Of a stretch of DNA of 64,000 bases, positions 1 to 20,374 are shown piece by piece (within the stretch, counting starts at the first letter, position 1; every line of letters starts with the position of its first letter). The notes under the pieces were generated by a model. The model ran no database searches, was not told the origin of the DNA, and was given only the letters and a program-made list of their open reading frames with translations. This stretch comes from Nocardioidaceae bacterium. Its GTDB lineage: Bacteria; Actinomycetota; Actinomycetes; Propionibacteriales; Nocardioidaceae. The stretch spans positions 1-64,000 of the forward strand of contig JAURVT010000012.1 in assembly GCA_030655315.1 (NCBI GenBank). Reading direction: 5' to 3'. The position numbers and the translations under genes were made by a program.

Positions 1-140
1 TTGACCAGGCTCTTCAGCTCGGTGTACTGCGGCCCCATCCTCGCCGTCGTCTTGATCCACTCCGGCTTCTTCTCGATCGGGGTCTCCGCGTTGCGGACCT
101 CGAGCCGGAGCAGCTTGCGTCCCTCGGGTGCGATCGTCAC
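1..140 (-). CDS. lipA: Lipoyl synthase LipA, N-terminal part (cut by window edge)
   Basis: Radical-SAM enzyme that inserts two sulfurs into a protein-bound octanoyl chain to make lipoyl. Only the first 46 codons are present, read from a GTG at 140. They give an N-terminus of the form [20 protein letters not shown], then a short stretch ending KPEWIKT, which is the conserved start of actinobacterial LipA. The catalytic FeS cysteines lie outside the window. The GTG overlaps the stop of the preceding transferase gene (GTGA), so the two are translationally coupled. It is the last visible gene of an operon with a lipoyl domain, E1 and E2 genes, so it probably serves that complex. Confidence 0.85.
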
Positions 141-1006
141 GACGCGAGCTCCCTGGTGCGGCGCGGAGCGGACGTGCTCCACGCGGTGGCGAGCCGGCCG
201 TCGGTCACCCGCGGTCGGACGGATCCATCGAACGGCACGAGATGCTGCTCGGCCTGCTGGTCCACGCGCGCCAGCACGTCGGCCGACAGCTCGGTCGGCA
301 CGACCGGGCCGAGGGTGCGCATGCCGTCGAGCAGCGCGTCGGCGACGTCGCGCACACCGATGCCGGGCGACCACTGCTCGACCGCGCCGACGGTGGCGGG
401 GTCCCAGTCGTAGTCGAGCGCGTCGTAGGCGACGCGCAGGCCCTCGCGGATCGGGTCGGCGTCGCGGACCACGATGCTCGTGCTGAAAAGCCAGCCGTGC
501 CGCGAGAGCCGCTGCGCGGTGCCGACGATCTTGTGGGTGCCGGCGGCGTTGACGCTGAAGCGGCCGGGGCAGTACTCACCGGGCACCTCGCCGATGCGGG
601 CGTCGAGGCCGAAGCCGCGCAGGACCCGGACGTAGAGGTCTCCGAAGCCGCGGAAGCGGTCCTCGATGCCCTGCCGGGGGTCGAGATCGGAGCAGACGCG
701 GTCGATCACCAGGCTGCCGTGGTGGTACAGCGCGAGCCGTCCGCCGGGCCCTCGGACGACCGGGGTGAAGCCGACCTCGCGGACGGCCTGGACGGCGTCG
801 GCGAAGCCCGGCTGCAGGGTGTCGCGGCGACTGAACGCCGCCGTCGCCGAGGGACGGTAGACGCGCACCAGGTCGTGCCCGCGCCGGGCACCGAGCTCGT
901 CGAGCAGCGCCAGCCCGAGGGCGACGTCCTGCGCGGGCGTGAGCGAGTCGAGCCCCACCAGGCGGGCGACGCGCCGGGGCGCCGCGCCGTCCGGCTCAGG
1001 ACCCAT
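137..1006 (-). CDS. Lipoate/octanoate protein transferase of the LplA/LipM family
   Basis: A 289-residue protein of the biotin/lipoyl transferase fold. It has a [12 protein letters not shown] loop at residues 86-97 (the family's GG-x-V-x-H region) and a lysine in HKIVGTAQR (K159), the acyl-adenylate or acyl-thioester lysine position. A cysteine in [10 protein letters not shown] (C146) lies where octanoyltransferases of the LipM type carry their catalytic thiol. I therefore favour octanoyl transfer from ACP onto the lipoyl domain, feeding LipA encoded next. An ATP-dependent lipoate ligase is the alternative. The ATG at 1006 lies inside the end of the E2 gene (11-nt overlap), and the 3' end overlaps lipA by 4 nt. 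Family placement is firm and exact chemistry is inferred. Confidence 0.8.
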
Positions 1007-1688
1007 CGGACTGCAGCTCCGCGCTCTGCAGCTCGGTGACGAGGTCGGCCAGGAACCGGGCGCCGGTGGCGCCGTCCACGGCCCGGTGGTCGCAGGTCAG
1101 GGTCAGCTCGGCGACGGGACGCCACTGCGGGTCGCCGTCGTTCCAGACCTGGCGCTGCGCGGTCGAGCCGACCGCCAGGATCGCGACCTGGGGCACGTTG
1201 AGGATCGCGTCGAACCGGTCGATGCCGAACGGGCCGAGGTTGGACACCGTGAAGGTTCCGCCGTCGATGTCGGCGTAGCCGAGCTTGCCGATGCGGGCGC
1301 GGGAGACGACGTCGCCACGGGCGGCGGCGATGCCGGCCAGGTCGAGCGCCTGGGTCCCGTGCACCACGGGCACCATCAGGCCGGCGTCGGTGGCCACGGC
1401 CAGGCCGAGGTTGACCTCGTCGAACGTGGTGACGACCTCGCCGCCGTAGTGGGCGTTGATCGCCGGGTGCTTCACCAGCGCGCGAGAGCAGGCGCGCAGC
1501 AGGACGTCGGTGAGCGTGGCGCCCTCGTGGGCGTTCTTGGTCGCCGCCGCGTTGGTCATGTCGACCGAGGCGGTGAGGTGGAAGACCGGCGCCTCCCACG
1601 CGGCGGTCATCCGCCGGGCCGCGGTACGACGGATGCCCTTGAGCGGGGTCGCGGTGCCGGCGGACGCGGTCTCGGTGTCGGCGCTCAT
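996..1688 (-). CDS. Dihydrolipoamide acyltransferase (E2) catalytic core lacking lipoyl and E1/E3-binding domains
   Basis: A 230-residue protein made only of the 2-oxoacid dehydrogenase acyltransferase core. It begins almost at once with the core motif IRRTAARRMTAAW (residues 19-31) and ends with the active-site motif DHRAVDG, with H201 and D205 as the expected catalytic pair. Family members are usually 370-600 residues with one to three lipoyl domains and a peripheral-subunit-binding domain. Neither is present, nor is there a linker. The missing lipoyl domain is encoded alone 4 kb upstream in the same operon. Start: the ATG at 1688 overlaps the aldolase stop (ATGA). The reading frame stays open upstream, but inside the aldolase gene, and that translation has no domain character. 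Expected to transfer an acyl group from lipoyl to CoA. Confidence 0.88.
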   Translation of the reverse strand: MSADTETASAGTATPLKGIRRTAARRMTAAWEAPVFHLTASVDMTNAAATKNAHEGATLTDVLLRACSRALVKHPAINAHYGGEVVTTFDEVNLGLAVATDAGLMVPVVHGTQALDLAGIAAARGDVVSRARIGKLGYADIDGGTFTVSNLGPFGIDRFDAILNVPQVAILAVGSTAQRQVWNDGDPQWRPVAELTLTCDHRAVDGATGARFLADLVTELQSAELQSDGS

Positions 1689-2542
1689 GCGCGCACCGTG
1701 CTCAGCCCGGCGGTGCCGGCGCAGCCGTACAGGTTCATCTTCTCCACGGTGGCCTCGACCATGCGGCTGCGGCCCTCGGCCATCGCCGTCTCGAGCTGCT
1801 GGTCGCCGCTGGACCACACGTCGAGCATCCCGTCGCGGAACGCGTGACGGAGGTCGGTGTCGGCGTTGAACTTGTGGACGCCCGCACGGATCGCGGCGCG
1901 GATCTCGTCGTCGGGCACGCCGGAGGCGCCGTGCAGCACGAGCGGCACCGGGACGACGGCCTGGATCTGCTCGATGCGCTCGATCGCCAGCGGCTGCGGG
2001 GCCGAGGCGGACACGCCGTGCACGATGCCCGCCGAGATCGCGAGCAGGTCGACGCCGGTCTCGGCGACGAAGCGCTCGGCCTCGGCGACGTCGGTGTAGT
2101 AGGTGTCCCAGTCGACCTCCTCGCCGGCGTCGGGGATCTTGCCGAGCTCGGCCTCGACGGGGATGCCGAACTCGTGCGCGACCTCGACGACCCGGCGGGT
2201 GGTCCGGATGTTCTCCTCGAACGGCAGGTGCGCGCCGTCGTACATGATCGAGTCGAAGCCGAGCCGGATGGCCTCGAAGACCTCGTCCCACGGCCCGTGG
2301 TCGAGGTGGATGACGATCTCGGCGTCGGACTCGTCGACGACGCGGCGCGTCATCTCGTAGGCGGCGCGCAGACCCATGTGCGGGACGATCGCGCGGCCGA
2401 CCTGGAGGTAGACCGGTGCGTCGGCCTTCTCGGCCGCCCAGGTGAGGGCCTGCGTGGTCTCGACGTTGTGCATGTTGAACGCGCCGATCGCGTATCCGCT
2501 CTCGCGGGCGCGGCGGACGAGGTCCGTCCCGTTGACCGTCAT
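1685..2542 (-). CDS. Class II ketose-phosphate aldolase (fructose-bisphosphate/tagatose-bisphosphate aldolase family)
   Basis: A 285-residue zinc aldolase. It shows the family's metal and substrate motifs: GAFNMHNVE near residue 20, VIHLDHG near 85 (zinc histidine), AELGKIPDAGEE near 140, AISAGIVHG near 180, LVLHGASG near 210 and KFNADTDLR near 235. It should cleave a ketose 1-phosphate or 1,6-bisphosphate into dihydroxyacetone phosphate and an aldehyde. The substrate cannot be read from sequence. Both ends overlap neighbours by ATGA, with an FGGY kinase upstream and the E2 core downstream, so it is part of a tightly coupled operon. An AGAGGA ribosome site precedes the ATG at 2542. Confidence 0.85.
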   Translation of the reverse strand: MTVNGTDLVRRARESGYAIGAFNMHNVETTQALTWAAEKADAPVYLQVGRAIVPHMGLRAAYEMTRRVVDESDAEIVIHLDHGPWDEVFEAIRLGFDSIMYDGAHLPFEENIRTTRRVVEVAHEFGIPVEAELGKIPDAGEEVDWDTYYTDVAEAERFVAETGVDLLAISAGIVHGVSASAPQPLAIERIEQIQAVVPVPLVLHGASGVPDDEIRAAIRAGVHKFNADTDLRHAFRDGMLDVWSSGDQQLETAMAEGRSRMVEATVEKMNLYGCAGTAGLSTVRA

Positions 2543-4077
2543 GCTGGGTTCCTCTCGGGGTGGGGGGTGCCGGACCGTCGGGGTCCGGGGGTGTGCGCGC
2601 GTACCGAGGCGAGCGCGGAGCGCCACCCGTCGACGAGCTCGTCTCTGCGGGCGCCGTCCATGGACGGCTCGAACACGCGGTCCTGCGACCAGGTGGAGGC
2701 CACGTCGGCCTCGCCGGCCCAGAGGCCGGACGACGCTCCGGCGGCGAACGCGATGCCGAGGGCGGTGCGCTCGAGCTGGGCCGAGCGGGCGAGCGGGATC
2801 CCGAGCAGGTCGGCCTGGAACTGGCAGAGCGCGTCGCTGCGCGCCCCGCCGCCGTCGACCCGGAGCTCGGTCAGGTCGAGGTCGCCGGCGCGGAGGGCGT
2901 CGACGATGTCGAGGGTCTGGTAGGCCATCGACTCGATCGCCGCGCGGAGCATGTGCTCGACGGTGGTGGCCAGGCTCAGACCGACCAGCCCGCCGCGGGC
3001 GCGTCGGTCGAGCGCCGGCGCCCACAGGCCCGCGAACGCGGGCACCATGTAGACGCCGTCCGTGTCGGCGACGAGGTCGAGCGCGCGGTCGGCGTTGGCA
3101 CCGACCCAGGCCGTGCCGAACCGGTCGCGCAGCCACTGCAGCGCCTGTCCGCAGTGCGCGACGACGCCCTCGACGCCGTAGCGCGTCTCGCCGCGCAGCG
3201 TCCAGGAGACGCCGGTGGTGAGCCCGTCGATCGGGCGCGGCTCGGTCCCGCAGCTGACGGTGAGGACGCCGGCGGTGCCGTAGGTGTTCTTCGCCGAGCC
3301 GGGGGTGAAGCAGCCCTGGCCGTACATCGAGGCCTGCTGGTCACCGAGCACGGCGGTGATCGGGACGGCGGCGCCGAGGATCTCGGGCAGCAGCTCGCCG
3401 AACCCGGCGTCGGAGGCCACCGGGGTGGCGAGCAGCTCGACCGGGATGTCGTAGGCGGCCAGCAGCTCGTGGTCCCAGTCGAGCGTCTCGAGATCGAACA
3501 TCGCGGTGCGCGAGGCCTCGGTGTGGTCGGTCAGGTGCGACCTCCCGCCGGTGAGGTTCCACAGCAACCAGGTGTCGACGGTGCCCGCGGCGAGCTCGCC
3601 GCGGCGGGCACGGTCCTGCGCGCCGTCGACGTGGCGCAGGATCCAGGCGATCTTGGCCGCGGTGTAGTACGAGTCGTTGTGCAGGCCGGTGGACCGGCGG
3701 ACCTTGTCGTCGAGGCCGTCGGCGCTCCACTGGTGCACGATCTCGTCGGTCTGGGACGACATCCACATGATCGCGTGGTGCAGCGGACGACCGGTGGCAC
3801 GGTCCCAGACCACGGCGGTCTCGCGGTGCGTCGTGAGGCCGACGGCGGCGAGCTCGTCGACCCTGATGCCCGAGGCGTGGAAGGCCTCGCAGATCGCGGC
3901 GAGCTGCAGCTCCCACAGCCGGACCGGGTCGATCTCGACCCAGCCCGGGTTGTCGTGGATCGGCAGCACCGGGCGGCGCGCCTCGGCGACGATGGCGCCC
4001 TCGGCGTCCACGACCACGGCGCGAGCGGTGCTGGACCCCTCGTCGACGGCCAGGACGTAGGGGCCGACCCCGCTCAC
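2539..4077 (-). CDS. FGGY-family polyol kinase related to glycerol kinase
   Basis: A 512-residue FGGY kinase closest in pattern to glycerol kinase. It keeps HRETAVVW near residue 84, a TVDTWLLWNLTGG block, the GDQQA aspartate loop (catalytic base) and a late GGGARS adenine-binding loop. It departs from GlpK where that enzyme reads NQRET, WQDRRT and DPYFSGTK: here THRET, WMSSQT and NDSYYTAAK. That argues for a polyol other than glycerol. Start is a GTG at 4077 overlapping the dehydrogenase stop (GTGA). It lies between a GlpD-like oxidase gene and an aldolase gene, consistent with ATP-dependent entry of a polyol into a phosphorylated pathway. Confidence 0.82.
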   Translation of the reverse strand: MSGVGPYVLAVDEGSSTARAVVVDAEGAIVAEARRPVLPIHDNPGWVEIDPVRLWELQLAAICEAFHASGIRVDELAAVGLTTHRETAVVWDRATGRPLHHAIMWMSSQTDEIVHQWSADGLDDKVRRSTGLHNDSYYTAAKIAWILRHVDGAQDRARRGELAAGTVDTWLLWNLTGGRSHLTDHTEASRTAMFDLETLDWDHELLAAYDIPVELLATPVASDAGFGELLPEILGAAVPITAVLGDQQASMYGQGCFTPGSAKNTYGTAGVLTVSCGTEPRPIDGLTTGVSWTLRGETRYGVEGVVAHCGQALQWLRDRFGTAWVGANADRALDLVADTDGVYMVPAFAGLWAPALDRRARGGLVGLSLATTVEHMLRAAIESMAYQTLDIVDALRAGDLDLTELRVDGGGARSDALCQFQADLLGIPLARSAQLERTALGIAFAAGASSGLWAGEADVASTWSQDRVFEPSMDGARRDELVDGWRSALASVRAHTPGPRRSGTPHPERNPA

Positions 4078-5738
4078 GCGCCCACCGTCTGCGGGTCGCG
4101 CGAGGGCACGGCCAGACGCTGCAGCCAGGTGCGGTAGTCCTCGATCTGGGCCTTGCGCTCGGTGTCGTCCCAGCCCAGGTGCTCGGCCAGCACGTCGGCC
4201 ACCTGCTCGACGCGGTCGAGGACGTGGCCGGGCTCGAAGGCGAGCATGGTGCGACGCGCGAGCACGTCGGTGAGCGAGCGGGCCATCTCGTGGTCGACCG
4301 CGAACACCAGCTCGCCGGCGAGCGTGCCCGTGCGGGGATCGACGACCTCGTCCAGACCGTGCACGGAGCGGATGGTCACCAGGACCTCGGGGGCGCGGGT
4401 GCCGTAGACGTCGACGAGCCGCTGGGCGCTGGCCTCGGGCAGACCGGCGGTGCGCACGAAGTCGCGGCCGAAGCGGGCGAGGTCCGTCGTGCGTGCCCCC
4501 GGGAACGGCGTGGTCCTGGTGGTGGTCGGGGTCTTCGGACGCCCCAGGCGACGCAGCGCGTCATCGACGACGTCCTCGGCGAGCTGGCGGTAGGTGGTGA
4601 GCTTGCCGCCGACCACCGTCACCAGGTTCTCCAGGCCCTCGCCGTGGTCATGGAGCACGTGCGACCGCGGGATCGCGGACGTGTCCTTGACGTCGGGCAC
4701 GTGGGGCAGGGGCCGGACGCCGCTCATCGTGTACAGGACGTCGTCGGGCGTCAGGTTGGCCTGCGGGACCAGGCTGTTGACCTCGCCGAGGATGTAGTCG
4801 ACCTCGTCGGCGTCGCAGCGCGCGTCGTCGGGGTCGCCCTCGACGCGGATGTCGGTGGTGCCGAGCATGTAGCGCCCGCACCACGGGATCACCAGGACGA
4901 GGCGGCCGTCGGCGCGCGACTCGTAGTAGACGACGTCGCTGGGGGCGCCGGGGAACTTGTCGACGACGACGTGGCTTCCCTTGGTGCCCTCGTTGAGCCG
5001 GGGCTGCGGCGGTGCCGTGCCGAGGGTCTCGGCGGCGAAGACCTGGTCGATCCAGGGTCCGGCGACGTTGACGACGACCGAGCCGCGGACCTCGTGGACG
5101 CTGCCGTCCTCGGTGTCGGTGAACCGGACGCCGACGACGCGGCCGCCCTCGAGCAGCGGGGCGTCGACCTGGGCGCGGGTGCGGACCACGGCGCCGTCGG
5201 CCTGGGCCGCGACGGCGAGCTCGACGCAGAGGCGCTCGGCGAGCTCGACCTGCCCGTCGATGAAGGCCGCGGCGCCCGTGAGGCCGTCGCGTCCGATGCC
5301 GGGGAACCGGACGAGCGTCTGCGAGCCGCGCAGGATCTTGTGGTGCGAGGCCTTCTTGTCCATCGACAGGACGTCGTAGGTGATCATGCCGAGCCGGATC
5401 AGCCACGGGGGTCGGCGGTTGTGCTTGTAGAACGGCATCAGCAGCCACTCGGGCTTGACCAGGTGCGGCGCGAGGCGGAACAGGCGCTCGCGCTCGCGCA
5501 GCGACTCGCGCACCAGGGGCACGTCGTAGTGCTCCAGGTAGCGCAGGCCGCCGTGGATCAGGCGCCCCGACCACGCCGACACCCCGCTGCAGATGTCGCG
5601 CTGCTCCAGCAGGGCGACGCGCAGTCCGCGGGCAGCGGCGTCGCGGGCGATGCCGACGCCGTTGATGCCGGCGCCGATGACGATGACGTCGAAGCTGCCG
5701 ACGAGCTCGTCAGGGGTGGTGGACGTGGTCGGGGTCAT
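4074..5738 (-). CDS. GlpD-like FAD-dependent polyol-phosphate dehydrogenase
   Basis: A 554-residue flavoprotein of the aerobic glycerol-3-phosphate dehydrogenase family. The Rossmann motif GAGINGVG is at residues 22-29, LIHGGLRYLEH follows near 60-70, a GTTD block and VGGKLTTYRQLAEDV near 385 mark the FAD domain, and a GlpD C-terminal domain is present. The loop before LIHGG normally reads TSSxSSK in glycerol-3-phosphate enzymes. Here it is VSAWSGR, so the substrate may be another polyol phosphate (erythritol-phosphate-type enzymes belong to the same family). The product would be a ketose phosphate with electrons going to the quinone pool. The stop overlaps the kinase start, and the lipoyl gene lies 7 nt upstream. 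Confidence 0.85.
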   Translation of the reverse strand: MTPTTSTTPDELVGSFDVIVIGAGINGVGIARDAAARGLRVALLEQRDICSGVSAWSGRLIHGGLRYLEHYDVPLVRESLRERERLFRLAPHLVKPEWLLMPFYKHNRRPPWLIRLGMITYDVLSMDKKASHHKILRGSQTLVRFPGIGRDGLTGAAAFIDGQVELAERLCVELAVAAQADGAVVRTRAQVDAPLLEGGRVVGVRFTDTEDGSVHEVRGSVVVNVAGPWIDQVFAAETLGTAPPQPRLNEGTKGSHVVVDKFPGAPSDVVYYESRADGRLVLVIPWCGRYMLGTTDIRVEGDPDDARCDADEVDYILGEVNSLVPQANLTPDDVLYTMSGVRPLPHVPDVKDTSAIPRSHVLHDHGEGLENLVTVVGGKLTTYRQLAEDVVDDALRRLGRPKTPTTTRTTPFPGARTTDLARFGRDFVRTAGLPEASAQRLVDVYGTRAPEVLVTIRSVHGLDEVVDPRTGTLAGELVFAVDHEMARSLTDVLARRTMLAFEPGHVLDRVEQVADVLAEHLGWDDTERKAQIEDYRTWLQRLAVPSRDPQTVGA

Positions 5739-5745
5739 GGTCGCC

Positions 5746-5985
5746 TCAGTCCGTCTCGATGATGGCGACGACGGTGCGCACGTCGACGGTCTCGCCCTTG
5801 GGAACCTTGATCTCGACGATCTTGCCGGTGGCGGGCGACTCGAGGGTCTCCTCGACCTTCTCGGCCTCCACCTCGGCGAGCGCCTCGTCCTCGGTGACCG
5901 AGTCGCCCACCTCCTTGTGCCACTCGACGATGGTGCCCTCGCTCATGCCCATGCCCCACTGCGGGAGCAGAACCTCGACCTGCAT
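5746..5985 (-). CDS. Free-standing lipoyl-domain protein
   Basis: A 79-residue protein that is a single biotinyl/lipoyl hammerhead domain and nothing else. It starts MQVEVLLPQWGMGMSEGTIV and carries the attachment motif EAEKVEETLESP, with K43 the predicted lipoylated lysine. The ATG at 5985 lies about 40 nt after the E1-beta stop, and the ORF ends 7 nt before the GlpD-like gene. The frame is open further upstream but overlaps E1-beta, with no lipoyl-like sequence. In ordinary complexes this domain is fused to E2, and the E2 of this operon lacks it, so this protein is the obvious swinging arm supplied in trans. A GcvH protein is excluded by length and motif. Confidence 0.9.
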   Translation of the reverse strand: MQVEVLLPQWGMGMSEGTIVEWHKEVGDSVTEDEALAEVEAEKVEETLESPATGKIVEIKVPKGETVDVRTVVAIIETD

Positions 5986-6026
5986 GTGTCTTCCTCGTTC
6001 CCTGCTGGTTCTTCTCGTTCGCGGGC

Positions 6027-7061
6027 TCAGCGGGCGCTGAGCGCGGTCTCCTGTGCCGGCTCGGGCACGTCGCACACGCGACGGACCGCGGCGGCGATCT
6101 TCATGGCGTCGGGATACAGCTGCTTCTCGATCGCCGGGCTGAAGGGGATCTGCGTGTCCGGGGTGGTCACCCGGACGATGGGGGCGCGCAGCGAGCCGAA
6201 CGCCTCCTCGGCGACGAGCGCCGAGATCTCGGCGGCCGCGCCGCAGGTGCGGTGCGCGGGGTCGGCGACGACCAGGCGACCGGTGCGGGCGACCGATGCG
6301 ACGATGGCCTCGCGGTCCAGCGGGACGAGCGTGCGCGGGTCGAGCACCTCGACGCTCAGGCCCTCCTCGGCCAGCGCGTTCGCGGCCTTGATCGCCTCGG
6401 GGACGGCGCCGGAGATGGCCACGACGGTGACGTCCGAGCCCTCGCGGTGGGTGCGGGCGACGCCCAGCGGGATGCGGTACTCGGCCTCGTCCACCTCCTC
6501 CTTGCTGCCCCACAGGGTGCAGGCCTCGAAGGTGAGGACCGGGTCGTCGGAGTCGACGGCCGCACGGAGCAGGCCCTTGGCGTCGCTGGGGGTGGCCGGC
6601 GTGATGATCTTCAGGCCGGGCACGTTCATGAACATCGGGTAGGGCCGGTCCGAGTGGTGCGCACCGGTGCTGAGCCCGTAGAACATCGCCGAGCGGAACA
6701 CCACGGGCATCGAGGCCTGGCCGCCGAACATGTAGCGGTTCTTGGCGACCTGGTTCACGAACTGGTCCATCGCCATGTAGAGGAAGCTGGAGTAGGACAG
6801 GTCGACGATCGGGCGCAGACCGGTCATCGCGGCTCCGGCGGCGGCGCCGACGATGCCCTCCTCGGAGATCGGCGTGTTGCGGATGCGGTTCTTGCCGAAC
6901 ATCTCGAGGAAGTCGCCCTTGTCCTTGCGCGACTTGCCGGCGCCGGTGGTGCCGTAGACGTTGGCCTCGACGTCCTCGCCGATGATGATGACGCGCTCGT
7001 CGGCCTCCATGGCCTCGCGCTGAGCGGCGCCGATGGCACCGAGGTAGCTCATGACGGTCAT
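6027..7061 (-). CDS. Thiamine-diphosphate dehydrogenase E1 component, beta subunit
   Basis: A 344-residue transketolase-like E1-beta of the 2-oxo-acid/acetoin dehydrogenase family. It has IIIGEDVEANVYG near residue 25 (thiamine-activating glutamate), ISEEGIVGAAAGAAMTGLRP near 65, GAHHSDRPYP near 130 and GLKIITPATPSDAKGLL near 150, followed by a transketolase C-terminal domain with PLDREAI. The GAHHSDRPYP-type pattern resembles acetoin-dehydrogenase (AcoB) and related E1s more than classical pyruvate dehydrogenase, but substrate cannot be fixed. The ATG at 7061 overlaps the stop of the alpha-subunit gene (ATGA), giving stoichiometric coupling. Confidence 0.9.
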   Translation of the reverse strand: MTVMSYLGAIGAAQREAMEADERVIIIGEDVEANVYGTTGAGKSRKDKGDFLEMFGKNRIRNTPISEEGIVGAAAGAAMTGLRPIVDLSYSSFLYMAMDQFVNQVAKNRYMFGGQASMPVVFRSAMFYGLSTGAHHSDRPYPMFMNVPGLKIITPATPSDAKGLLRAAVDSDDPVLTFEACTLWGSKEEVDEAEYRIPLGVARTHREGSDVTVVAISGAVPEAIKAANALAEEGLSVEVLDPRTLVPLDREAIVASVARTGRLVVADPAHRTCGAAAEISALVAEEAFGSLRAPIVRVTTPDTQIPFSPAIEKQLYPDAMKIAAAVRRVCDVPEPAQETALSAR

Positions 7062-8050
7062 GCGTGCGCTCCGATGGGGTTGTCGGTGTAGAGGTCGAGG
7101 AAGGCGACCTCGGGCTCGGGGAACGGGCTCTCCTGGCTGAACTCGAAGGCCTCCTCCACCTCGGCGAGCACGTCGATCTCCAGCTGGTCCATCTCGTCCT
7201 CGGTGGCGACGCCGGAGTCGACCAGGTGCTTGCGGAAGGAGAGGATCGGGTCGCGACCGACCCAGCTCTCGCGCTCGAGCGCGTCGCGGTAGTCGGTGCC
7301 GAGTCGCAGGCCCTCGGAGTGCTCGTTGTAGCGATAGGTGATGACCTCGACCAGCGTCGGGCCACCGCCGCTGCGGGCGTTCTCGACCGCGGCCGAGACC
7401 GCCTCGTAGACCTTGAGCACGTCCTGCCCGTCCTCGACGCGGACGCCGGGCATGCCGAAGCCGGCCGCGCGCTCGGCGATGACGCCGGAGGTGACGGTGT
7501 GCGCCGGGGTGGACAGCGCATACTGGTTGTTCTCGCAGAGGTAGATGACCGGGAGGTCCCAGACGCCGGCCATGTTCATCGACTCGTAGAGGCAGCCCTG
7601 GTTGGCGGCGCCGTCACCGAAGAACGCCAGGGCGACCCGGCCGTTGTCGAGCACCTTGGACGACAGCGCGGCGCCGGTGGCGATCGGGATGGACGAGCCG
7701 ACGATGCCGGACTCGCCCAGGCTGCCGACGTTGAAGTCGGCCAGGTGGAGCGAGCCACCCTTGCCTCCGCAGACGCCCGTGGCCTTGCCGACGAGCTCGG
7801 CCATCAGCGGGCCGAGGGGCGAGCCCTTGCCGATCGGGTGGCCGTGGCTGCGGTGGTTGCCACTCATGTAGTCGTCGTCGCCCAGGGCCATCGTGGCTCC
7901 GACGACCTGGGCCTCCTGGCCGATGCTGGTGTGCACGGTGCCGGGGATCTGGCCGCGCTTGACCATCTTCGAGGCGCGCTCGTCGAAGCGGCGGATGCGC
8001 AGCATGCGTCGCTGCATCTCGACGAGGGTCTCGTTGGGAAGGGTGCTCAT
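7058..8050 (-). CDS. Thiamine-diphosphate dehydrogenase E1 component, alpha subunit
   Basis: A 330-residue E1-alpha subunit. The thiamine-diphosphate/Mg motif runs from GDGAANQG (residues 145-152) to CENN (172-175). GNHRSHGHPIGKG near 65-76 and GGKGGSLHLAD near 95-105 are family signatures. I start at the ATG at 8050, which has GGAG about 10 nt upstream. A longer reading from a GTG at 8089 would place its start inside the palindrome at 8074-8089, which looks like an operator. First gene of the operon E1-alpha, E1-beta, lipoyl protein, GlpD-like, kinase, aldolase, E2 core, transferase, lipA. It probably decarboxylates a 2-oxo acid or cleaves an acyloin-type ketone. Confidence 0.9.
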   Translation of the reverse strand: MSTLPNETLVEMQRRMLRIRRFDERASKMVKRGQIPGTVHTSIGQEAQVVGATMALGDDDYMSGNHRSHGHPIGKGSPLGPLMAELVGKATGVCGGKGGSLHLADFNVGSLGESGIVGSSIPIATGAALSSKVLDNGRVALAFFGDGAANQGCLYESMNMAGVWDLPVIYLCENNQYALSTPAHTVTSGVIAERAAGFGMPGVRVEDGQDVLKVYEAVSAAVENARSGGGPTLVEVITYRYNEHSEGLRLGTDYRDALERESWVGRDPILSFRKHLVDSGVATEDEMDQLEIDVLAEVEEAFEFSQESPFPEPEVAFLDLYTDNPIGAHA

Positions 8051-8125: not shown

Positions 8126-9124
8126 TCACGTCGCAAGTACCTCGGCCGCATCGATCCGTGGGGCGAGCAGGGCCGTGGCCGTGCCCGCGTCGGTGAAGAG
8201 CTCGTGGATCCACCCGCCGCACAGCGCGGCGCGAAGCGGCTCGACCTTGTCGGTGCCGCCGGCTACGGTGATCCGCCGCGGGCAACGACGCAGCTGGTCC
8301 AGGGACACCGCGACGACGAGGTCGTCCAGGTCGCAGTCGACGCGCTCGCCCCGGGCGTCGATCGCACGCTGGTCGAGCTGGCCGACGCCGCCCGCGGCGC
8401 GGGCCGCGGCGAGCTGGTCGCTGCTGAAGAAGTTGTCGTCGGGCGTGAGGAAGCTGTGCACGTCGACCGGGCCCACCCCCACGAAGGCGACGTCCAGGCG
8501 GTCGAGCTCCTGCGTCGCCCGCAGCATGTGGGGGGTGCGGACGGCACTGGCGCGCAGGTCGGCGGTGGCGAAGACGCCCGGGGTGCGCAGAAACACCGGT
8601 TCCGCGCCGAGCAGCCGGGCCAGCTGCTGGGTGGACCGGGCGGCGGCGTGCTGCAGGGCCGGCGACCCCAGGTCGCCGAGCATCTCGACCACCGTGCCGG
8701 ACCGTCCGGGGGCGCCGGACCCGAGGGCGGCGACCATCTCGCGCAGGGTGGTGCTCCACGAGGTGAAGCCGACGGTGCCGACCGCGAGCGGCGCCGCCCG
8801 CAGGTAGTCGGCGGCCTCCTGGCCCAGGCTGCGGGTGAGCGACTCCCCCACCCCCACCTCGACCACGTGCGCGGCCCGGAGGTCGAACCGCGCCTCCAGG
8901 GCGTCCTCGAGCTCGGGGTGGTAGTCCGCCGGGACCTGCACGGACTTGTGCACCACCGAGGTCGCCTCGGCCGCGGCCAGCACCCGCGAGACGGTCGTCT
9001 GCGAGATGGACAGCGCGGTCGCGATCTCCTTCTGGCGCCGTCCCCAGACGTGGTAGAGCCGCGCCACCTGCGCGGCCAGCCGCTCCTGCGACGCCGAGGG
9101 CGGGCGCGCGGCCGCGCGGGCCAC
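8126..9124 (-). CDS. SorC/DeoR-type sugar-sensing transcriptional regulator
   Basis: A 332-residue SorC-family regulator. The N-terminal helix-turn-helix includes RRQKEIATALSISQTTVSRV (about residues 29-48). The rest is the sugar-phosphate-isomerase-like effector domain, with GFTSWSTTLREMV near 135, VEMLGDLGSPALQHAAARS near 160 and VAVSGG-like VAVSLDQLRR and ITVAGGTDK near the end. Such proteins bind a phosphorylated sugar made by the pathway they control (EryD, SorC, DeoR). GTG start at 9124, two bases after the HAD stop, so it is the last gene of the upstream operon. It directly precedes the operator-like palindrome of the E1/E2 operon, its likely target. A paralogue is at 16799-17764. Confidence 0.88.
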   Translation of the reverse strand: MARAAARPPSASQERLAAQVARLYHVWGRRQKEIATALSISQTTVSRVLAAAEATSVVHKSVQVPADYHPELEDALEARFDLRAAHVVEVGVGESLTRSLGQEAADYLRAAPLAVGTVGFTSWSTTLREMVAALGSGAPGRSGTVVEMLGDLGSPALQHAAARSTQQLARLLGAEPVFLRTPGVFATADLRASAVRTPHMLRATQELDRLDVAFVGVGPVDVHSFLTPDDNFFSSDQLAAARAAGGVGQLDQRAIDARGERVDCDLDDLVVAVSLDQLRRCPRRITVAGGTDKVEPLRAALCGGWIHELFTDAGTATALLAPRIDAAEVLAT

Positions 9125-9126: not shown

Positions 9127-9966
9127 TCAGGCCGCCCCGTCGCGCGTGCGCAGGTCCTGGGGCAGCAGGGACGGCGCACCCTCGAGCACCCAGGTGGGTC
9201 GGTCGTCGGGCGCGAGCGCGTCGACCATCTCGCGGGTGGTCTCGCCGGTGAGGACGAGCGCGGAGTCCATCCCGACCCCCTGCGCGAGGGCGACGTCGGT
9301 GTACAGGCGGTCGCCCACCATCACGCACTGGTCGGGCCGCAGCCCCAGCCGCTCCATCGCGGCCTCGGCCATCACCGCGCCGGGCTTGCCGACGTCGAGG
9401 TCGAGGCGGTGGCCGGTGCAGGCCTCGATCGCCGCGACCACCGCGGCCGAGTCGGGCTCGCCGGCACCGCCCGGCAGCGGGCAGTAGGCGTCCATGTTGG
9501 TGGTCACCAGCAGGACGTCCTCGGAGCGACGCAGGGCGTCGAAGGCGATCTGCAGCTTGCGGTAGTCGAACGCGCGGTCGTAGCTCGCGACGACGACGTC
9601 GATCTCCTTGGGGTCGTCGGTGAGGTGGATGCCGGCCTGGACGACGGCGCGGGTCAGCGCGGCGCTGCCGATCACGTACGCCCGCGCGTCGGGACGGTTC
9701 CGACGCAGCCAGCCGGGCATCGTGACCACCGGGTTCAGCACGTCGTCGGCGGTGGCGGGGATGCCGAGGCGGCTGAGCTTGGCGGCGTAGTCGGAGGCGT
9801 CGCGGGTGGGGTTGTTGGACAGGAAGAGCACGCGTGCGCCGGCGTCGCGGAGCCCGGACACCAGCTCGGACGAGCCCGGCAGCAGCTCGTCGCCGAGGTA
9901 GAGCGTGCCGTCGAGGTCGAACAGGTAGCCGTCGTAGACGTGCGCGGGAGCCTGCGGGGAGCTCAT
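9127..9966 (-). CDS. HAD-IIA (NagD-type) sugar-phosphate phosphatase
   Basis: A 279-residue haloacid-dehalogenase phosphatase. Motif I FDLDGTLYLG is at residues 16-25 (nucleophile D17, acid D19), motif II SNNPT near 50, the motif III lysine is in DVGKPGAVM, and motif IV is VGDRLYTDVALA. The NagD/phosphoglycolate-type C2 cap lies between motifs II and III. Likely hydrolyses a sugar or polyol phosphate, perhaps a dead-end or overflow product of the surrounding kinases. ATG at 9966 overlaps the kinase stop (ATGA), and the 3' end abuts the SorC gene. Confidence 0.85.
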   Translation of the reverse strand: MSSPQAPAHVYDGYLFDLDGTLYLGDELLPGSSELVSGLRDAGARVLFLSNNPTRDASDYAAKLSRLGIPATADDVLNPVVTMPGWLRRNRPDARAYVIGSAALTRAVVQAGIHLTDDPKEIDVVVASYDRAFDYRKLQIAFDALRRSEDVLLVTTNMDAYCPLPGGAGEPDSAAVVAAIEACTGHRLDLDVGKPGAVMAEAAMERLGLRPDQCVMVGDRLYTDVALAQGVGMDSALVLTGETTREMVDALAPDDRPTWVLEGAPSLLPQDLRTRDGAA

Positions 9967-11459
9967 CGGGCCGCCGCCTGGAGCTCGAAGACCTCGCGCA
10001 GGCGCGGGTAGACCTCGCGATAGATCGACAGCAGCCGGTCGTAGGTGGCCGACGTCCCCGGATCGGGCTCGTGGGCCTCTCCCAGGCGGCACATCTCCCG
10101 CACGGCGGTGTCGACGTCGGGGTGCACGCCCGTGCCGACCGCGGCCAGGACCGCGGCCCCGAGGCAGGTGCCCTCGGGCTCCTCGGCGACCACGACCGGC
10201 CGGCCGAGCACGTCGGCGACCATCTGCACCCAGAACGGGCTGCGCGAGCCACCGCCCACGGCGATCACGCGCTCGACCGGCTGGCCCATCGCCGCCGAGG
10301 CGCCGTCGGTGAGCATCCGCTGCTCGAGCGCGATGCCCTCGAGCACCGAGCGGTACAGGTGGGCCTGGGTGTGCGCGTCGGTGAGCCCGATGAAGGCGCC
10401 GCGGGCGGTGTCCTCCCAGTGGGGGGTCAGCGCGCCGGTCCAGTACGGCAGGCAGAACAGCCCGTCCGAGCCCGGCGCGACGAGCGCGGCGCGCTCCCCG
10501 AGCTCGCGCTCGGCCGAGCCGTCCGTCGCCGTGAGGCCGGCCATCTCGCGGACGAACCAGCTGATGTTCAGCGTGCCGCCGCCGATGAAGGTCTCCATCA
10601 CGTAGGCCTTGGGCACACCGCTCGTCATCACGCGGTACTCGGGGCCGATGGACAGCTCGTCGCAGTGGACGCCGCTGACGACGCCGGTGCCGAGGTTCAG
10701 GTAGGCCTGCCCGGGCGCGACGACGCCCGCGCCGAGCGACGCGGCCTGGCCGTCGCCGGTGCCGGCGATCACGGGGAGGCCGCGGGGCAGCCCCAGCAGG
10801 TCGGCGACGTCGTCCTGCACGTGACCGAGCGTGGCGCCGGGGCCGTGCAGCTCGGGGAACACGTCGACGTCGAGCCCCAGCGCGGCGACGAGGGCCGGGT
10901 CGTAGTCGAAGGTGGAGACGTCGAGGACGCCGAGCGGGTCGACGCTGCCCCACGAGGTGCGCCAGTGCCCGGTGAGCCGGTGCACCAGGTAGGTCTGCAC
11001 GTCGACGACGTGCGCGGTGCGCTCGAGCGCCTCGGGCTCGTGCTCGCGCAGCCACAGCAGCTTGTACCAGGCGGGCGTGGTGTTGGGCGGCTTGCCGGTG
11101 GTGCGGTGCACCTCCGGCGTGCCGAACCGCGTCACCTGGTCCGCGGCCCGACGGTCGAGCCACAGCATGGCCGGGCGGACCGCCTGCCCGTCGGCGTCGA
11201 GGCAGACGAACGACTCCCGCTGGTGGGCGATCGCGAGGCCCGTGAGCGCGGCGGGGTCGAGGTCGCGGACGGCGGTCGAGACGGCCGAGGCCACCGCGGC
11301 CCACCAGTCCTGCGGGTCCTGCTCTCCGTACTCGGGCCGGGGACGGCTCAGCGGCATCGCGGCTCGCCCCGAGGCGACGGCACGGCCCGCGGCGTCGACC
11401 ACCACGGCCTTGGCGGCCGTCGTGGAGCAGTCGATGCCGAGCAGCAGCGGCTCAGGCAT
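9963..11459 (-). CDS. FGGY-family carbohydrate kinase, xylulokinase-like
   Basis: A 498-residue FGGY kinase: LLGIDCSTTAAKAVVVDAAG at the N-terminal phosphate-binding loop, HQRESFVCLD near 80, MLWLDRRA near 98, GTGDGQAASLGAG with the catalytic aspartate near 240, and GGGSRSPFWVQMVADVLGRP near 400. The pattern is nearer xylulokinase than glycerol kinase. It should phosphorylate the sugar or polyol imported by the adjoining ABC system. ATG at 11459 overlaps the dehydrogenase gene end by 8 nt, and the stop overlaps the HAD gene start. Second FGGY kinase of the island. Confidence 0.85.
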   Translation of the reverse strand: MPEPLLLGIDCSTTAAKAVVVDAAGRAVASGRAAMPLSRPRPEYGEQDPQDWWAAVASAVSTAVRDLDPAALTGLAIAHQRESFVCLDADGQAVRPAMLWLDRRAADQVTRFGTPEVHRTTGKPPNTTPAWYKLLWLREHEPEALERTAHVVDVQTYLVHRLTGHWRTSWGSVDPLGVLDVSTFDYDPALVAALGLDVDVFPELHGPGATLGHVQDDVADLLGLPRGLPVIAGTGDGQAASLGAGVVAPGQAYLNLGTGVVSGVHCDELSIGPEYRVMTSGVPKAYVMETFIGGGTLNISWFVREMAGLTATDGSAERELGERAALVAPGSDGLFCLPYWTGALTPHWEDTARGAFIGLTDAHTQAHLYRSVLEGIALEQRMLTDGASAAMGQPVERVIAVGGGSRSPFWVQMVADVLGRPVVVAEEPEGTCLGAAVLAAVGTGVHPDVDTAVREMCRLGEAHEPDPGTSATYDRLLSIYREVYPRLREVFELQAAAR

Positions 11460-12882
11460 CGCCGACCCCCAGGCTGGCGGCCAGCACCTCGTCGACCGTG
11501 GCGTCGTCCCACCCGCCGGAGAGGGCGAGCAGGTCGACGGCGGTGAAGCGGTCGCGCATGAACAGGCAGCTCCGCACCGCCCAGCGGGCGAGGTCGTCGG
11601 ACACCGACGGCGTCAGCGACGCGAACGTGGCGGGCACCTGCGCGTCGGCGAGGGCCCCGAGGAGCTCCGCGGGGGGCGCGACGAGCTCGTCGAGCTTGGC
11701 GTCGTGCTCGGCCCAGCCGTCCACCAGCTGCTGCAGGTGCGGCAGCAGCTCGGCGCAGCGGGCGAGCTTGCCCGAGTACGCCTTCCAGCACTCGGCGGTG
11801 GTGGCACCGGTGGGGTCGAGGTGGTCGAACGCCTCGGACACCTGGCGACGGGCGACGTCCTCGTCGGGGATCGTCAGGGCGGGCAGCCCCTCGGCCAGGC
11901 GCCGGCGCAGCACGGCCCACACCGCGGCGGCGACGGGCGACGCGACGCCGACCTGCTCGCCGTGCAGCCCGATCTCCTCGCCGCGGGCACCGTGGTGCAG
12001 GTCGAGCATGTGGCTGACGAGGTGCTCGCTGCCCGACAGGATCGCGGTGGTGCCGGCGACGCCCGTGGCGATCCCGCGCACGGCGAGCAGCCGCGTCAGG
12101 GTGGCGATCGCCTCGGGCTCGCGGCGCGGCACGCCGGACGACCAGCCGGACAGGTCACGGCCGAGGGAGGTGAGCAGGTGGCGCGGGGCCTCGTGGTAGG
12201 TGTCGTCCAGGCCCACGAGGTGCGCGAGGTACCAGTCCGCCGGCGCGGTGAACATCGACAGCGCCTCGCCGAAGCCCGACGCGTTCAGGCGCTGCGGCGC
12301 GTCTCGGATGGTCTCGGGGTCGGCGAGCACGGTGTGCGGCCACTGCGAGGGGATGGTGCGCTTGACGCCGTTGGCGAGCACCACCGACACGTTGTCGGTG
12401 AACCCGTCGACGGACGCCGCGGTCTGCACCACCACCAGCGCCATGCCGCCGGCGCGCTCGCAGGCGACCTTGGCGACGTCGCTGACGGTGCCGCCGCCGA
12501 TGGCGACGACGCAGTCGGCACCGGCGACGGCGCCCGTCGCCGCGTCGAGGACGTCCGCGTCGGCGTGCAGCCGCGGGTGGCCGTCGCTCAGCACGGTGGT
12601 GTGGCAGTCGTACCGGTCCGCGAGCTGCGCGAGCACGTCGGCCTTGAGGTCGACGCCGGCCCGCTCGATCAGGACCTCGTCCTGCAGCAGCACGACGCGT
12701 GCGGCGGGGTCGCTCCCGATGGCCCGCTCGACCGCGTCGGCCACGTGGGTGTGCGCGCCGGCGGACAGGTCGATGGTCTCGATGCCGAGGTCGACCAGGC
12801 GGCCGTCGGGGTCGCGCTCGGCGAGACCCCGGGTGATCGCGTCGATGTCGACGCCGGCGCCCTGCGCCACGTCGCTGCTCAT
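11452..12882 (-). CDS. Glycerol-1-phosphate dehydrogenase (AraM/EgsA) family protein
   Basis: A 476-residue member of the iron-containing alcohol dehydrogenase/dehydroquinate-synthase superfamily. NAD-binding GGGTVSDVAKV is near residue 145, then VVQTAASVDGFTDNVSVV, which matches the G1P-dehydrogenase pattern (PTAPSMDGYTS). Presumed metal ligands are a glutamate in GFGEALSMFTAPADW (usually Asp), a histidine in SGSEHLVSHML and one in LHGEQVGVAS. The enzyme would interconvert a polyol phosphate and a ketose phosphate with NAD(P)H. True G1P synthesis is archaeal, or AraM-type in Bacillus. Here the transporter-kinase context suggests catabolism. ATG at 12882 overlaps the permease stop. Confidence 0.78.
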   Translation of the reverse strand: MSSDVAQGAGVDIDAITRGLAERDPDGRLVDLGIETIDLSAGAHTHVADAVERAIGSDPAARVVLLQDEVLIERAGVDLKADVLAQLADRYDCHTTVLSDGHPRLHADADVLDAATGAVAGADCVVAIGGGTVSDVAKVACERAGGMALVVVQTAASVDGFTDNVSVVLANGVKRTIPSQWPHTVLADPETIRDAPQRLNASGFGEALSMFTAPADWYLAHLVGLDDTYHEAPRHLLTSLGRDLSGWSSGVPRREPEAIATLTRLLAVRGIATGVAGTTAILSGSEHLVSHMLDLHHGARGEEIGLHGEQVGVASPVAAAVWAVLRRRLAEGLPALTIPDEDVARRQVSEAFDHLDPTGATTAECWKAYSGKLARCAELLPHLQQLVDGWAEHDAKLDELVAPPAELLGALADAQVPATFASLTPSVSDDLARWAVRSCLFMRDRFTAVDLLALSGGWDDATVDEVLAASLGVGDA

Positions 12883-13919
12883 GCGCGCACCTTGTCGCGC
12901 AGCGCGCCCCGGTCGGTCATGACGGCCGCGATGATGACGACGCCGATGACGACGGGCTGGAGGTTGGGCGACACGTTCAGCAGCGACATGCCGTTGTTGA
13001 GGCAGCCGATGATCAGCAGGCCGACGAAGGTGCCGAACATCGAGCCCGATCCTCCGGCGAGGCTGGCCCCGCCGATGACGACCACGGCGATGACGTTGAG
13101 CAGGTCGGCGGTGCCGGCGGTGGGCTGCGCGGAGTCGAGCCGCGAGGCGACGACGAGGCCGGCGAGCGCGGCGAGGGTGCCGGCGATGACGTAGACGCGG
13201 ATCTTGATCGCGCGGACGGGCAGGCCGCTGAGGCGAGCGACCTCCTCGTTGCCGCCGATCGCGTACAGCGCGCGCCCGGTCGGGCGGTAACGCAGCCAGT
13301 AGGCGGCCGCGAGGTAGACGAGGACCAGCAGGATGCCCTGCAGCGGGATGCCGAGCACGCGGGCGGTGGTGAGGTCGACGAACCAGGTGGGGAAGCCGTT
13401 GATCGGGTTGCCGTCGGTGATGTACAGCGCGAGGCCGGCGCCGGCGGACATCGTCGCGAGCGTCGCGACGAACGCCTGGACCCGTCCGAACGTGGTGAGC
13501 AGGCCGTTGACGAGACCGATCAGCGCACCGACGGCGAGGCCGATGACGATCGCGACCGGGAACGGCAGGCCCTGCATCTGGAAGAGCCAGGCCGAGCTCA
13601 TCAGGCTGAGCGCCAGCGTCGAGCCGACCGACAGGTCGATGCCGCCGATGATGATCACCAGGGCGGCGCCGACGGCCATGATGCCGATGTCGGAGACCTG
13701 GCTGACGATGTTCAGCAGGTTGTTGGTGGTGAAGAAGAACGGCGACAGGATCGTCATCACGACCACGATGACCACGAGCCCCACGAGGGGACCGGGCAGC
13801 TGGCGCAGGAGCCCGAGCGCCTGGCGGCCCCGGCTCGGTGGGGTCGGGTCGGCGGTGGTGCCGGCCGGAGCCGACTGGTCGGTCTTCACGCTCGGGTTCT
13901 CCTCGATCGAGTGGCTCAT
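12879..13919 (-). CDS. Ribose-type ABC transporter permease
   Basis: A 346-residue membrane protein of the RbsC/AraH family (BPD_transp_2). It has about ten hydrophobic segments after a 35-residue charged cytoplasmic leader, the family block IIGGIDLSVGSTLALS near residue 100 and VIGGASLAGGSGSMFGTFVG near 280. It forms the channel of importer 1 with the ATPase and lipoprotein encoded just upstream. The gap to the ATPase gene is 3 nt, and the 3' end overlaps the dehydrogenase gene by 4 nt. Only one permease is seen here, so it presumably acts as a homodimer. Confidence 0.9.
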   Translation of the reverse strand: MSHSIEENPSVKTDQSAPAGTTADPTPPSRGRQALGLLRQLPGPLVGLVVIVVVMTILSPFFFTTNNLLNIVSQVSDIGIMAVGAALVIIIGGIDLSVGSTLALSLMSSAWLFQMQGLPFPVAIVIGLAVGALIGLVNGLLTTFGRVQAFVATLATMSAGAGLALYITDGNPINGFPTWFVDLTTARVLGIPLQGILLVLVYLAAAYWLRYRPTGRALYAIGGNEEVARLSGLPVRAIKIRVYVIAGTLAALAGLVVASRLDSAQPTAGTADLLNVIAVVVIGGASLAGGSGSMFGTFVGLLIIGCLNNGMSLLNVSPNLQPVVIGVVIIAAVMTDRGALRDKVRA

Positions 13920-13922
13920 CGG

Positions 13923-15473
13923 TCAGTTCTCCTTCGGTGCCGACGCGGTGGCGCCGACGAGGCCGTCGGCGGGCGGCCCGTCGACGTCGAGGTCGCGGAC
14001 GGCCAGGGCCATCACGCGCTCGGGGGTGGCGGCGTCGCGGGTGAGGATCCCCTGCTGCCGTCCGCCGGACATCACGAGGACGCGGTGCGCGAGGCCCAGC
14101 ACCTCCTCCAGCTCGGAGGAGATGACGATGACGGCGACGCCGTCGACGGCGAGCTCGCGGATGATCTGGTAGATCGCCATCTTGGCGCCGACGTCGACGC
14201 CGCGGGTGGGCTCGTCGACGATCAGGACGTCGGGGCGGTTCACCAGCCAGCGGCCGAGCAGCACCTTCTGCTGGTTGCCTCCCGACATCGCGCCCACGGG
14301 CCGGTCCGCGCGACCGCGGATGTCGAGGGTCTCGAACTGGCGGGCCGCGACCTCGGCGACGGCGGCGGGCGTGACCATGCCGCGGCGCGAGATCTGGCGC
14401 TCCCACGGCAGCGCGATGTTCTCGCCGGCCGTGCGGTCGAGGTTGAGGCCCTGGTTCTTGCGGTCCTCGGGGACCATCACGATCCCGGCGGCGATGGCGT
14501 CGGCGGGCCGGCGGACCTGCACCGTCCGTCCGTCGACGACGAGCTCGCCGGTGTCGGCGGGGTCGACGCCGGCCAGCGCGCGGGCGACCTCGGTACGACC
14601 GGCGCCCACCAGCCCGGCGAAGCCGAGGATCTCGCCGCGGGCGACCGAGAAGGTCATGTCGGCGAACGAGCCGGCGCGGCCGAGGCCCGACACGGACAGC
14701 GCGACCTCGTCGCGGGGCGGCTCGGGGGCCTGGTGACGGTAGGTGAACTCGCGACCGACCATGGCGTTCACGAGCAGGGTGTTGTCGGCGAGCTCCTCGT
14801 CCCAGTGCGCGACGCGCTGCCCGTCGCGCAGGCAGACGATCTCGTCGGCGGTGCTGCGCACCTCGTCGAGGCGGTGGGAGATGTAGACGATGCCGGCACC
14901 GCCGTCGCGCAGGACGCCGATGTGGTCGAGCACCTTCTCGGTCTCCTCCTCGCCGAGCGAGGCCGACGGCTCGTCGAAGATGACGTAGGCCGGGTTGCGG
15001 GTGATCGCCTTGGCGATCTCGATCTCCTGCTGGGCGGCCATGGACAGCCCGGCCACCGGGCGACGCGGGTCGATCGCGGCCCCCAGCATCGCGAGCGCGT
15101 CAGCGGCGTCGTCGTTCATCCGACGACGGTCGATGCGCCCGCGGGAGGTGGGGAGGCGTCCGAGGAAGATGTTCTCGGCGACGCTGAGCTCGCCGACCAT
15201 CCGGATCTCCTGGTGGATGAGCACCACCCCGGACTCGAGCGCCTCGGCCGGCTTGGACGGCGCGTACGGGCGGCCGTCGAGCGTCATCTGGCCGCCGTCG
15301 GCCGGCACCACGCCGGCGATGATCGAGCTGAGCGTCGACTTGCCGGCCCCGTTCTCGCCGATCAGGCCGAGCACCGAGCCCCGCCGCAGCGTCAGGTCGA
15401 CGCCCTTGAGCACCGTGATGCCCGAGTAGGTCTTCACCAGGCCCGTGCACACCAGGCTGCGATCGTCGCTCAT
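13923..15473 (-). CDS. Sugar ABC transporter ATP-binding protein with two nucleotide-binding domains
   Basis: A 516-residue RbsA/MglA-type ATPase. NBD1 has Walker A GENGAGKST, a signature region LSMAAQQEIEIAKA and Walker B VIFDEPSASL. NBD2 has the usual degenerate Walker A (GLVGAGRTEV), signature MSGGNQQKV and Walker B IVDEPTRGVDVGAK. I start at the ATG at 15473, because the upstream extension runs through the hairpin at 15511-15539. Energises importer 1. Confidence 0.92.
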   Translation of the reverse strand: MSDDRSLVCTGLVKTYSGITVLKGVDLTLRRGSVLGLIGENGAGKSTLSSIIAGVVPADGGQMTLDGRPYAPSKPAEALESGVVLIHQEIRMVGELSVAENIFLGRLPTSRGRIDRRRMNDDAADALAMLGAAIDPRRPVAGLSMAAQQEIEIAKAITRNPAYVIFDEPSASLGEEETEKVLDHIGVLRDGGAGIVYISHRLDEVRSTADEIVCLRDGQRVAHWDEELADNTLLVNAMVGREFTYRHQAPEPPRDEVALSVSGLGRAGSFADMTFSVARGEILGFAGLVGAGRTEVARALAGVDPADTGELVVDGRTVQVRRPADAIAAGIVMVPEDRKNQGLNLDRTAGENIALPWERQISRRGMVTPAAVAEVAARQFETLDIRGRADRPVGAMSGGNQQKVLLGRWLVNRPDVLIVDEPTRGVDVGAKMAIYQIIRELAVDGVAVIVISSELEEVLGLAHRVLVMSGGRQQGILTRDAATPERVMALAVRDLDVDGPPADGLVGATASAPKEN

Positions 15474-15510
15474 GTCCTCTGCCTTCGTCCTCGTCGTCCA
15501 CCGGTGGTGG

Positions 15511-15539
15511 GTGGGTCCCGGCGCGCGGCCGGGACCCAC
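15511..15539 (-). promoter_or_regulatory. Intercistronic hairpin between binding-protein and ATPase genes
   Basis: A perfect 12-bp inverted repeat (GTGGGTCCCGGC and its complement) with a 5-nt loop lies in the 84-nt gap after the binding-protein stop (15558) and before the ATPase start (15473). It has no T-run. Such hairpins commonly protect the upstream mRNA or attenuate transcription, so that binding protein exceeds membrane components. The other importer has the same arrangement at 22974-23012. Confidence 0.7.
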
Positions 15540-15557
15540 CCGGGTCCAGACCTCAGG

Positions 15558-16615: not shown

Positions 16616-16798
16616 TGAAGTATGTGCGCCCGGTCACACGGCGTCAAGCCCCGGGCTCCCGCGGCACCCGCGCCGGCCCGATGCGTCCGGTTCGTCCCGC
16701 GCCTTGCGCCGCGAGGTCGGCCGTGCCGTTCTGCGTCCCACCGGCCCGAAGCCGGGCATACTGACCCGGCCAGGCCCGTACGATCAGGAGGGGACCCC

Positions 16799-17764: not shown

Positions 17765-17774
17765 ACCGAGTCGC

Positions 17775-17831: not shown

Positions 17832-17833
17832 AC

Positions 17834-19294: not shown

Positions 19295-19355
19295 GACGTC
19301 TCCATTTCCAGGGGTGTGGCCGAGTGGGGGTGGGTTCGGGTGGGTCGGGGCCGCG

Positions 19356-20369: not shown

Positions 20370-20374
20370 GGGGC

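Follow-up and report, generated by a model that had tools for sequence, protein, structure and literature searches.

Covalent tethering of the lipoyl domains to a giant acyltransferase (E2) core is the textbook rationale of the 2-oxo acid dehydrogenase complexes (active-site coupling and channelling). In the actinobacterial OdhA/KGD enzyme, the E2 catalytic domain has no lipoyl domain of its own and uses one in trans, and the actinobacterial E2p core is reduced to trimers (PMC10415282). Single-domain lipoyl proteins are known from archaea (PMC3904984); LbpA of Hdr-like sulfur oxidation is also one, and its operon contains a dedicated modifying enzyme (PMC6067878). The Pelobacter acetoin cluster includes lipoate genes (PMC3543383). 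In this study, we analyzed a window of 64,000 nucleotides, positions 1–64,000 of contig JAURVT010000012.1 of Nocardioidaceae bacterium (GCA_030655315.1), which contains an operon for a thiamine diphosphate (TPP)-dependent dehydrogenase (E1) with a lipoyl carrier and an E2 core encoded by two separate genes. With a probability of about 0.7, this operon encodes a working dehydrogenase of the 2-oxo acid/acetoin type that forms acyl-coenzyme A (acyl-CoA) in trans, with no tether and with a free carrier like GcvH.

The original prediction was that E1-alpha, E1-beta, a 79-residue lipoyl protein (K43) and a 230-residue E2 core (H201/D205) lacking lipoyl and subunit-binding domains are separate proteins, and the gene coordinates and Pfam assignments agree with it. 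On the minus strand, E1-alpha (7058..8050, 330 amino acids from the ATG at 8050) matched PF00676 with 265 bits and was followed by E1-beta (6027..7061, 344 amino acids; PF02779 and PF02780); all three E1 profiles scored well above their cut-offs. The standalone lipoyl carrier protein (5746..5985, minus strand) has its lysine in the motif EAEKVEE, and Biotin_lipoyl (PF00364, 69.5 bits), which spans residues 4–76, is its sole well-scoring Pfam domain. The standalone E2 core (996..1688, minus strand) has PF00198 (2-oxoacid_dh, 219 bits, residues 12–223) as its only Pfam domain, and the subunit-binding domain PF02817 had no match in any operon protein scanned with Pfam. Three genes on the same strand separate the lipoyl gene from the E2 core gene: a GlpD-like flavin adenine dinucleotide-dependent polyol-phosphate dehydrogenase (4074..5738; PF01266 and PF16901), a GlpK-like FGGY kinase (2539..4077; 532 bits to the glycerol kinase subfamily model, below the TIGR01311 equivalog cut-off) and a class II aldolase of the ketose-1-phosphate type (1685..2542; PF01116, 267 bits), belonging to a family that forms dihydroxyacetone phosphate. 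The solved chains nearest to this aldolase, 8q57 and 8q58, are ketose-bisphosphate aldolases. Many of the operon's genes share 4 bases with the next one (ATGA/GTGA), a pattern seen where translation is coupled.

To place the split among its relatives, one genome per species of GTDB release 220 was scanned, which gave 72 loci. Separate E1, lipoyl and E2 core genes were recovered in relatives: 24 E2 cores (window plus 23) formed one clade with a support of 100/99, and a separate lipoyl gene adjoins E1 in the clusters of this clade. The hosts belong to Actinomycetota (Nocardioides, Streptomyces-labelled genomes, Geodermatophilus, Nakamurella, the Arthrobacter group, Microbacteriaceae and Streptosporangiaceae) and to Rhodobacterales. 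When the whole open frame upstream of the 23 relatives' E2 cores was searched with a lipoyl hidden Markov model, no lipoyl domain was found (0/23); the same model detected the domain in every fused comparison E2 apart from L050, where the contig ends within the core, and the members of another split clade described below. H201 and D205 (HxxxD) were invariant in the E2 alignment, and the lipoylation lysine was retained in 24/24 aligned lipoyl proteins. No form joining the lipoyl and E2 frames, named in advance as a possible refutation, was seen in relatives. An artefact, in which a frameshift, an assembly error or a pseudogene had split one E2 gene, has next to no probability: the three intervening genes and the separate genes in 23 other genomes ruled it out, and recurrence at these loci excludes chance and decay as well. 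Among 397 sampled genomes of the phylum, an E2 of the split clade occurred only in the window genome, and the six other matches were 44–48% identical. The cluster was also present on Shinella and Arthrobacter plasmids. The operon is rare, and its occurrence on plasmids fits horizontal spread.

The E2 core is predicted to have an intact monomer fold; its AlphaFold model had a mean predicted local distance difference test (pLDDT) score of 91.6 and matched E2 cores in Foldseek with an E value of 4e-24. The segment preceding the core is short and predicted to be disordered. Of 45 fused E2s taken from other genomes for comparison, 44 had a hydrophobic C-terminus (e.g., EEPGLAL or ENPILMLV), the exception being L079. 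The split cores stop early, at about LESA or LEQG, without the hydrophobic C-terminal knob, although L023 retains a partial PLL. Trimers of canonical E2s are joined by a knob-and-socket contact of the C-terminal 3-10 helix, and actinobacterial AceF lost the large core through a change at this C-terminal contact (PMC10415282). Because the knob is lost in the split cores, we infer that they are free trimers that have lost the large core.

Three arrangements of the cluster were distinguished. Variant A, the window type, has the order E1a-E1b-lipoyl-(GlpD-GlpK)-aldolase-E2core, and its neighbours often include an ATP-binding cassette (ABC) importer, a protein of the iron-dependent alcohol dehydrogenase (Fe-ADH) family resembling glycerol-1-phosphate (G1P) dehydrogenase, a second FGGY kinase and a HAD phosphatase. 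Variant B (L020, L027 and L057) consists of a kinase, a short-chain dehydrogenase/reductase (SDR), an importer, a SorC regulator and E1a-E1b-lipoyl-E2core, with an LplA-like gene in L027 and L057; a similarity comparison found no aldolase gene in these three loci. Variant C (L021–L024 and L063) has a fused E1-alpha-beta of another lineage, a lipoyl protein with a classical ETDKA-type motif, and GlpK-like, aldolase and GlpD genes, and its E2 core lies in the opposite orientation. In the E1-beta tree, variants A and B formed one clade (100/99) and variant C was placed elsewhere, whereas the variant C E2 cores nest within the split E2 clade. Thus E1 and the lipoyl protein were exchanged and the E2 core was kept; the parts behave as exchangeable modules, which would be easier to understand if they work in trans. 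The exchange also bears on an unlikely alternative, in which non-covalent contacts hold the same split enzyme together stably: E1 or the lipoyl protein would dock on the E2 trimer, and there would be no free shuttle. The short disordered segment before the core could dock, and tight linkage with frequent gene overlap is typical of assembled subunits. However, no subunit-binding domain was found in the operon proteins scanned, and the replacement of E1 and the lipoyl protein by a distant lineage speaks against an interface that is fixed and finely tuned.

The operon shares with the classical 2-oxo acid and acetoin complexes a TPP-dependent E1-alpha/beta, an E2 domain with HxxxD and E3, the last encoded elsewhere in this genome and within the cluster in relatives. 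By contrast, an E2-borne lipoyl domain (absent in the window and 23 relatives), a subunit-binding domain and, in the window E2, the hydrophobic C-terminal knob as the sequence correlate of the 24- or 60-meric core are all missing. Acetoin dehydrogenase (AcoA/AcoB/AcoC/AcoL) has E1-alpha/beta of the same family with an HRxHGH motif and is also encoded in a catabolic operon, but the Rhodococcus E2 (control L119) fuses lipoyl domain and acyltransferase, whereas the window has separate parts in an operon of a sugar/polyol type. The glycine cleavage system likewise uses a small free lipoyl protein (GcvH) that serves separate enzymes, a shared dihydrolipoyl dehydrogenase (Lpd) and a modification of the LipM/LipL type; the window carrier, however, is an E2-type PF00364 lipoyl protein with TPP/acyl-CoA chemistry. 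The layout of the GcvH system appears to be rebuilt here from E2-type parts. In the comparison made here, OdhA comes out as the closest functional precedent, although it joins E2o and E1o in one fusion and relies on the AceF lipoyl domain, whereas the operon here supplies a dedicated carrier and an E2, both free. The likeness to LbpA drawn in the original prediction stood as a likeness, except that LbpA is GcvH-like, belongs to sulfur oxidation and has no E1/E2 partner. The split had also been presented as the best candidate for an undescribed system: the separation of lipoyl protein and E2 is indeed conserved in the clade, but the principle of lipoyl in trans is already known from OdhA (PMC10415282), and the dedicated free carrier with a free E2 core would be the new part. 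In the open-access literature searched, with subscription journals mostly uncovered, we found no description of such a pair for a TPP-dependent dehydrogenase.

The window lipoyl protein is, by its profile scores, of the E2 type and not of the GcvH type: it scored 21.6 bits against GCV_H (PF01597), under the cut-off of 22.2, compared with 69.5 bits for PF00364, and membership of the GcvH/LbpA group was rejected on this basis. A gene at 1006..137 (minus strand), which was not discussed in the original prediction and which we count as part of the system, starts within the 3' end of the E2 gene. It encodes a putative lipoyl or octanoyl transferase of the LplA/LipB fold and LipM/LipL type (PF21948, 39 bits); the predicted model had a pLDDT of 85.8, with 2p0l and 2p5i as best Foldseek fold matches. 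Against the curated LipM and LipL equivalogs it scored 41.8 and 25.3 bits (cut-offs 400 and 450), which points to a relative of LipM/LipL outside both equivalogs. An EYC...K signature (C146 and K159) was invariant across 10 relatives. A conserved cysteine and lysine mark the LipM/LipL enzymes of octanoyl or lipoyl transfer, so we read this protein as the putative carrier-loading enzyme.

These components suggest the following reaction cycle. E1 (alpha2beta2, TPP) would cleave the substrate and acylate the lipoyl-lysine of the small lipoyl protein, which would diffuse freely to a soluble E2 trimer and deliver the acyl group to form acyl-CoA. Lpd (E3), which several relatives encode within the cluster and which in this organism would be shared with the rest of the cell, would reoxidise the carrier, and the neighbouring LipM/LipL-type enzyme would attach octanoyl or lipoyl groups to it. 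The comparative evidence backs the split, its conserved association with E1 and the idea of a freely moving carrier that had been suggested. The earlier remark that no E3 gene is seen was correct for the 64-kb window, in which none was found; the system nevertheless has an E3, as Lpd lies within the cluster in L023, L033, L035 and L063 and, on the Arthrobacter plasmid L097, adjoins the E2 core. Seven loci also have LipA: L014, L017, L019, L023, L033, L035 and L095. A serine hydrolase of the beta-lactamase family is a repeated neighbour of the E2 core or of LipA (L014:3982-4839, L017:10672-11517, L019:10681-11550 and L023:6539-7435), and PF00144 was identified in those of L014 and L023.

Several observations weigh against a tether-less system acting in trans. 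In the window genome, E3 lies outside the cluster, the one Lpd above the curated cut-off being on another contig, and no LipA gene was seen. Its lipoylation-related genes include one resembling LipB and a further LplA-like gene. The E2 core and the lipoyl protein could associate non-covalently into a complex. Uncharacterised E1s of Thermoleophilia whose E2s are fused also have the acetoin-like E1-alpha motif, so it does not fix the substrate. Two sphingomonad plasmids (L096:10971-13247 and L098:10989-13245) encode E1a-E1b and a lipoyl protein of the 80-amino acid class with no E2 nearby, and a Rubrobacter plasmid (L094:2721-13018) encodes E1a-E1b-lipoyl, an ABC importer, GlpD, GlpK and aldolase; six-frame translation of the gap after this cluster revealed no E2 core. 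The E1-lipoyl genes of L096 and L098 have SDR, cupin, M24-peptidase-like and monooxygenase-like genes as neighbours. These three loci suggest that, in some cases, a different protein may act as the E2 partner. In keeping with them, the lipoyl protein could serve E1 while a fused E2 elsewhere does most of the acyl transfer, leaving the core protein to a different acyltransferase function, and the window genome does contain four further E2-domain genes. This arrangement is improbable, as the core retains H201/D205 and the whole fold and lies in the same cluster in nearly all relatives. Moreover, each fused E2 of the genome plausibly has an E1 of its own: those on contigs C20 and C31 lie within their own E1 operons, that on C23 is an OdhA-type E1/E2 fusion, and that on C16 adjoins Lpd and a LipB-like gene, with AceE on C17. 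A fused E2 as partner of the window E1, which would have contradicted the original prediction, is thus disfavoured.

Lipoyl-less E2 cores were also found outside the main clade. In L072, L076 and L082 (Sphingopyxis, an alphaproteobacterium and Phenylobacterium), the E2 cores (260 amino acids in L072) formed a separate clade (100/98) within fused alphaproteobacterial E2s, and a lipoyl protein of 76 to 84 amino acids is encoded in the E1 locus. The separation of lipoyl protein and E2 therefore probably arose at least twice. AMP-ligase, MaoC, SDR and Rieske oxygenase genes lie nearby (L072:3884-10663, L076:4820-10654 and L082:833-10660), and the substrate there may be a CoA-pathway intermediate.

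We then considered the substrate of the window E1. E1-beta is 47% identical to E1-beta of the Rhodococcus acetoin cluster, and the HRSHGH motif of E1-alpha resembles that of the Rhodococcus control (HR(S/G)HGH is common to both), whereas many pyruvate dehydrogenase (PDH)-type E1s of Pseudomonadota have YR. An EHSEGLR loop with an extra arginine (approximately residues 256–262 of E1-alpha, numbered from 8089) is kept in the E1 clade, where PDH-type E1s have GHSMSDP, and could bind a phosphorylated substrate. The acetoin-like motif and the lack of a detected aldolase in variant B suggest that E1 itself makes the C–C cut; our guess is an alpha-hydroxyketone cleaved in the manner of acetoin, namely a ketose or its phosphate derived from a polyol. 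Motif likeness is weak evidence on the substrate, so that 2-oxo acids are possible as well. Compatible with action in trans, and a possibility of some weight though short of even odds, is that E1 decarboxylates an ordinary 2-oxo acid of a sugar pathway, such as hydroxypyruvate or a deoxy-2-oxo acid. The best family models of E1-alpha are indeed those of pyruvate dehydrogenase, of the same fold family, but no dehydratase or aldonic-acid gene was seen among the annotated cluster genes, and the acetoin-type motif and variant B point the other way. A fully dissociated system of E1, carrier, E2 trimer and E3, of a design that evolved on more than one occasion, cleaving a polyol-derived ketose or ketose phosphate to acyl-CoA and aldehyde, is a tentative and rather doubtful extension. 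1-Deoxyxylulose-phosphate was considered as a substrate and is left as speculation. The binding protein, the kinases, the G1P-dehydrogenase-like protein and the aldolase were each compared for substrate and gave broad families only.

The remaining genes of the operon, also on the minus strand, encode a SorC-family sugar-sensing regulator (8126..9067; PF04198, 141 bits), a HAD-IIA-type phosphatase (9127..9966; PF13344 and PF13242), a second, xylulokinase-like FGGY kinase (9963..11459; TIGR01312, 322 bits, cut-off 380), the G1P-dehydrogenase-like member of the Fe-ADH family (11452..12882; PF13685, 81 bits), whose nearest solved chains are G1P dehydrogenases, and a ribose-type (CUT2) ABC importer (12879..16544; PF02653, PF00005 and PF13407). 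The importer comprises a permease (12879–13919), an ATPase (13923–15473) and a binding protein (15558–16544) whose closest structures are ribose/sugar-binding proteins. The region just past the operon (16622–24228) encodes another SorC regulator, this one on the plus strand, and another ribose-type ABC importer; an M20 peptidase gene separates the two.

A conserved natural system in which the arm is split from the core, the tether has gone and with it, apparently, the large core, and which has spread between phyla makes the need for tethering directly testable. If the substrate is a ketose, the operon would add a sugar-catabolic route via an acyl-CoA-forming TPP enzyme. If true, the dissociated, ketose-cleaving enzyme would be a sugar-cleaving counterpart of acetoin dehydrogenase without a tethered swinging arm.

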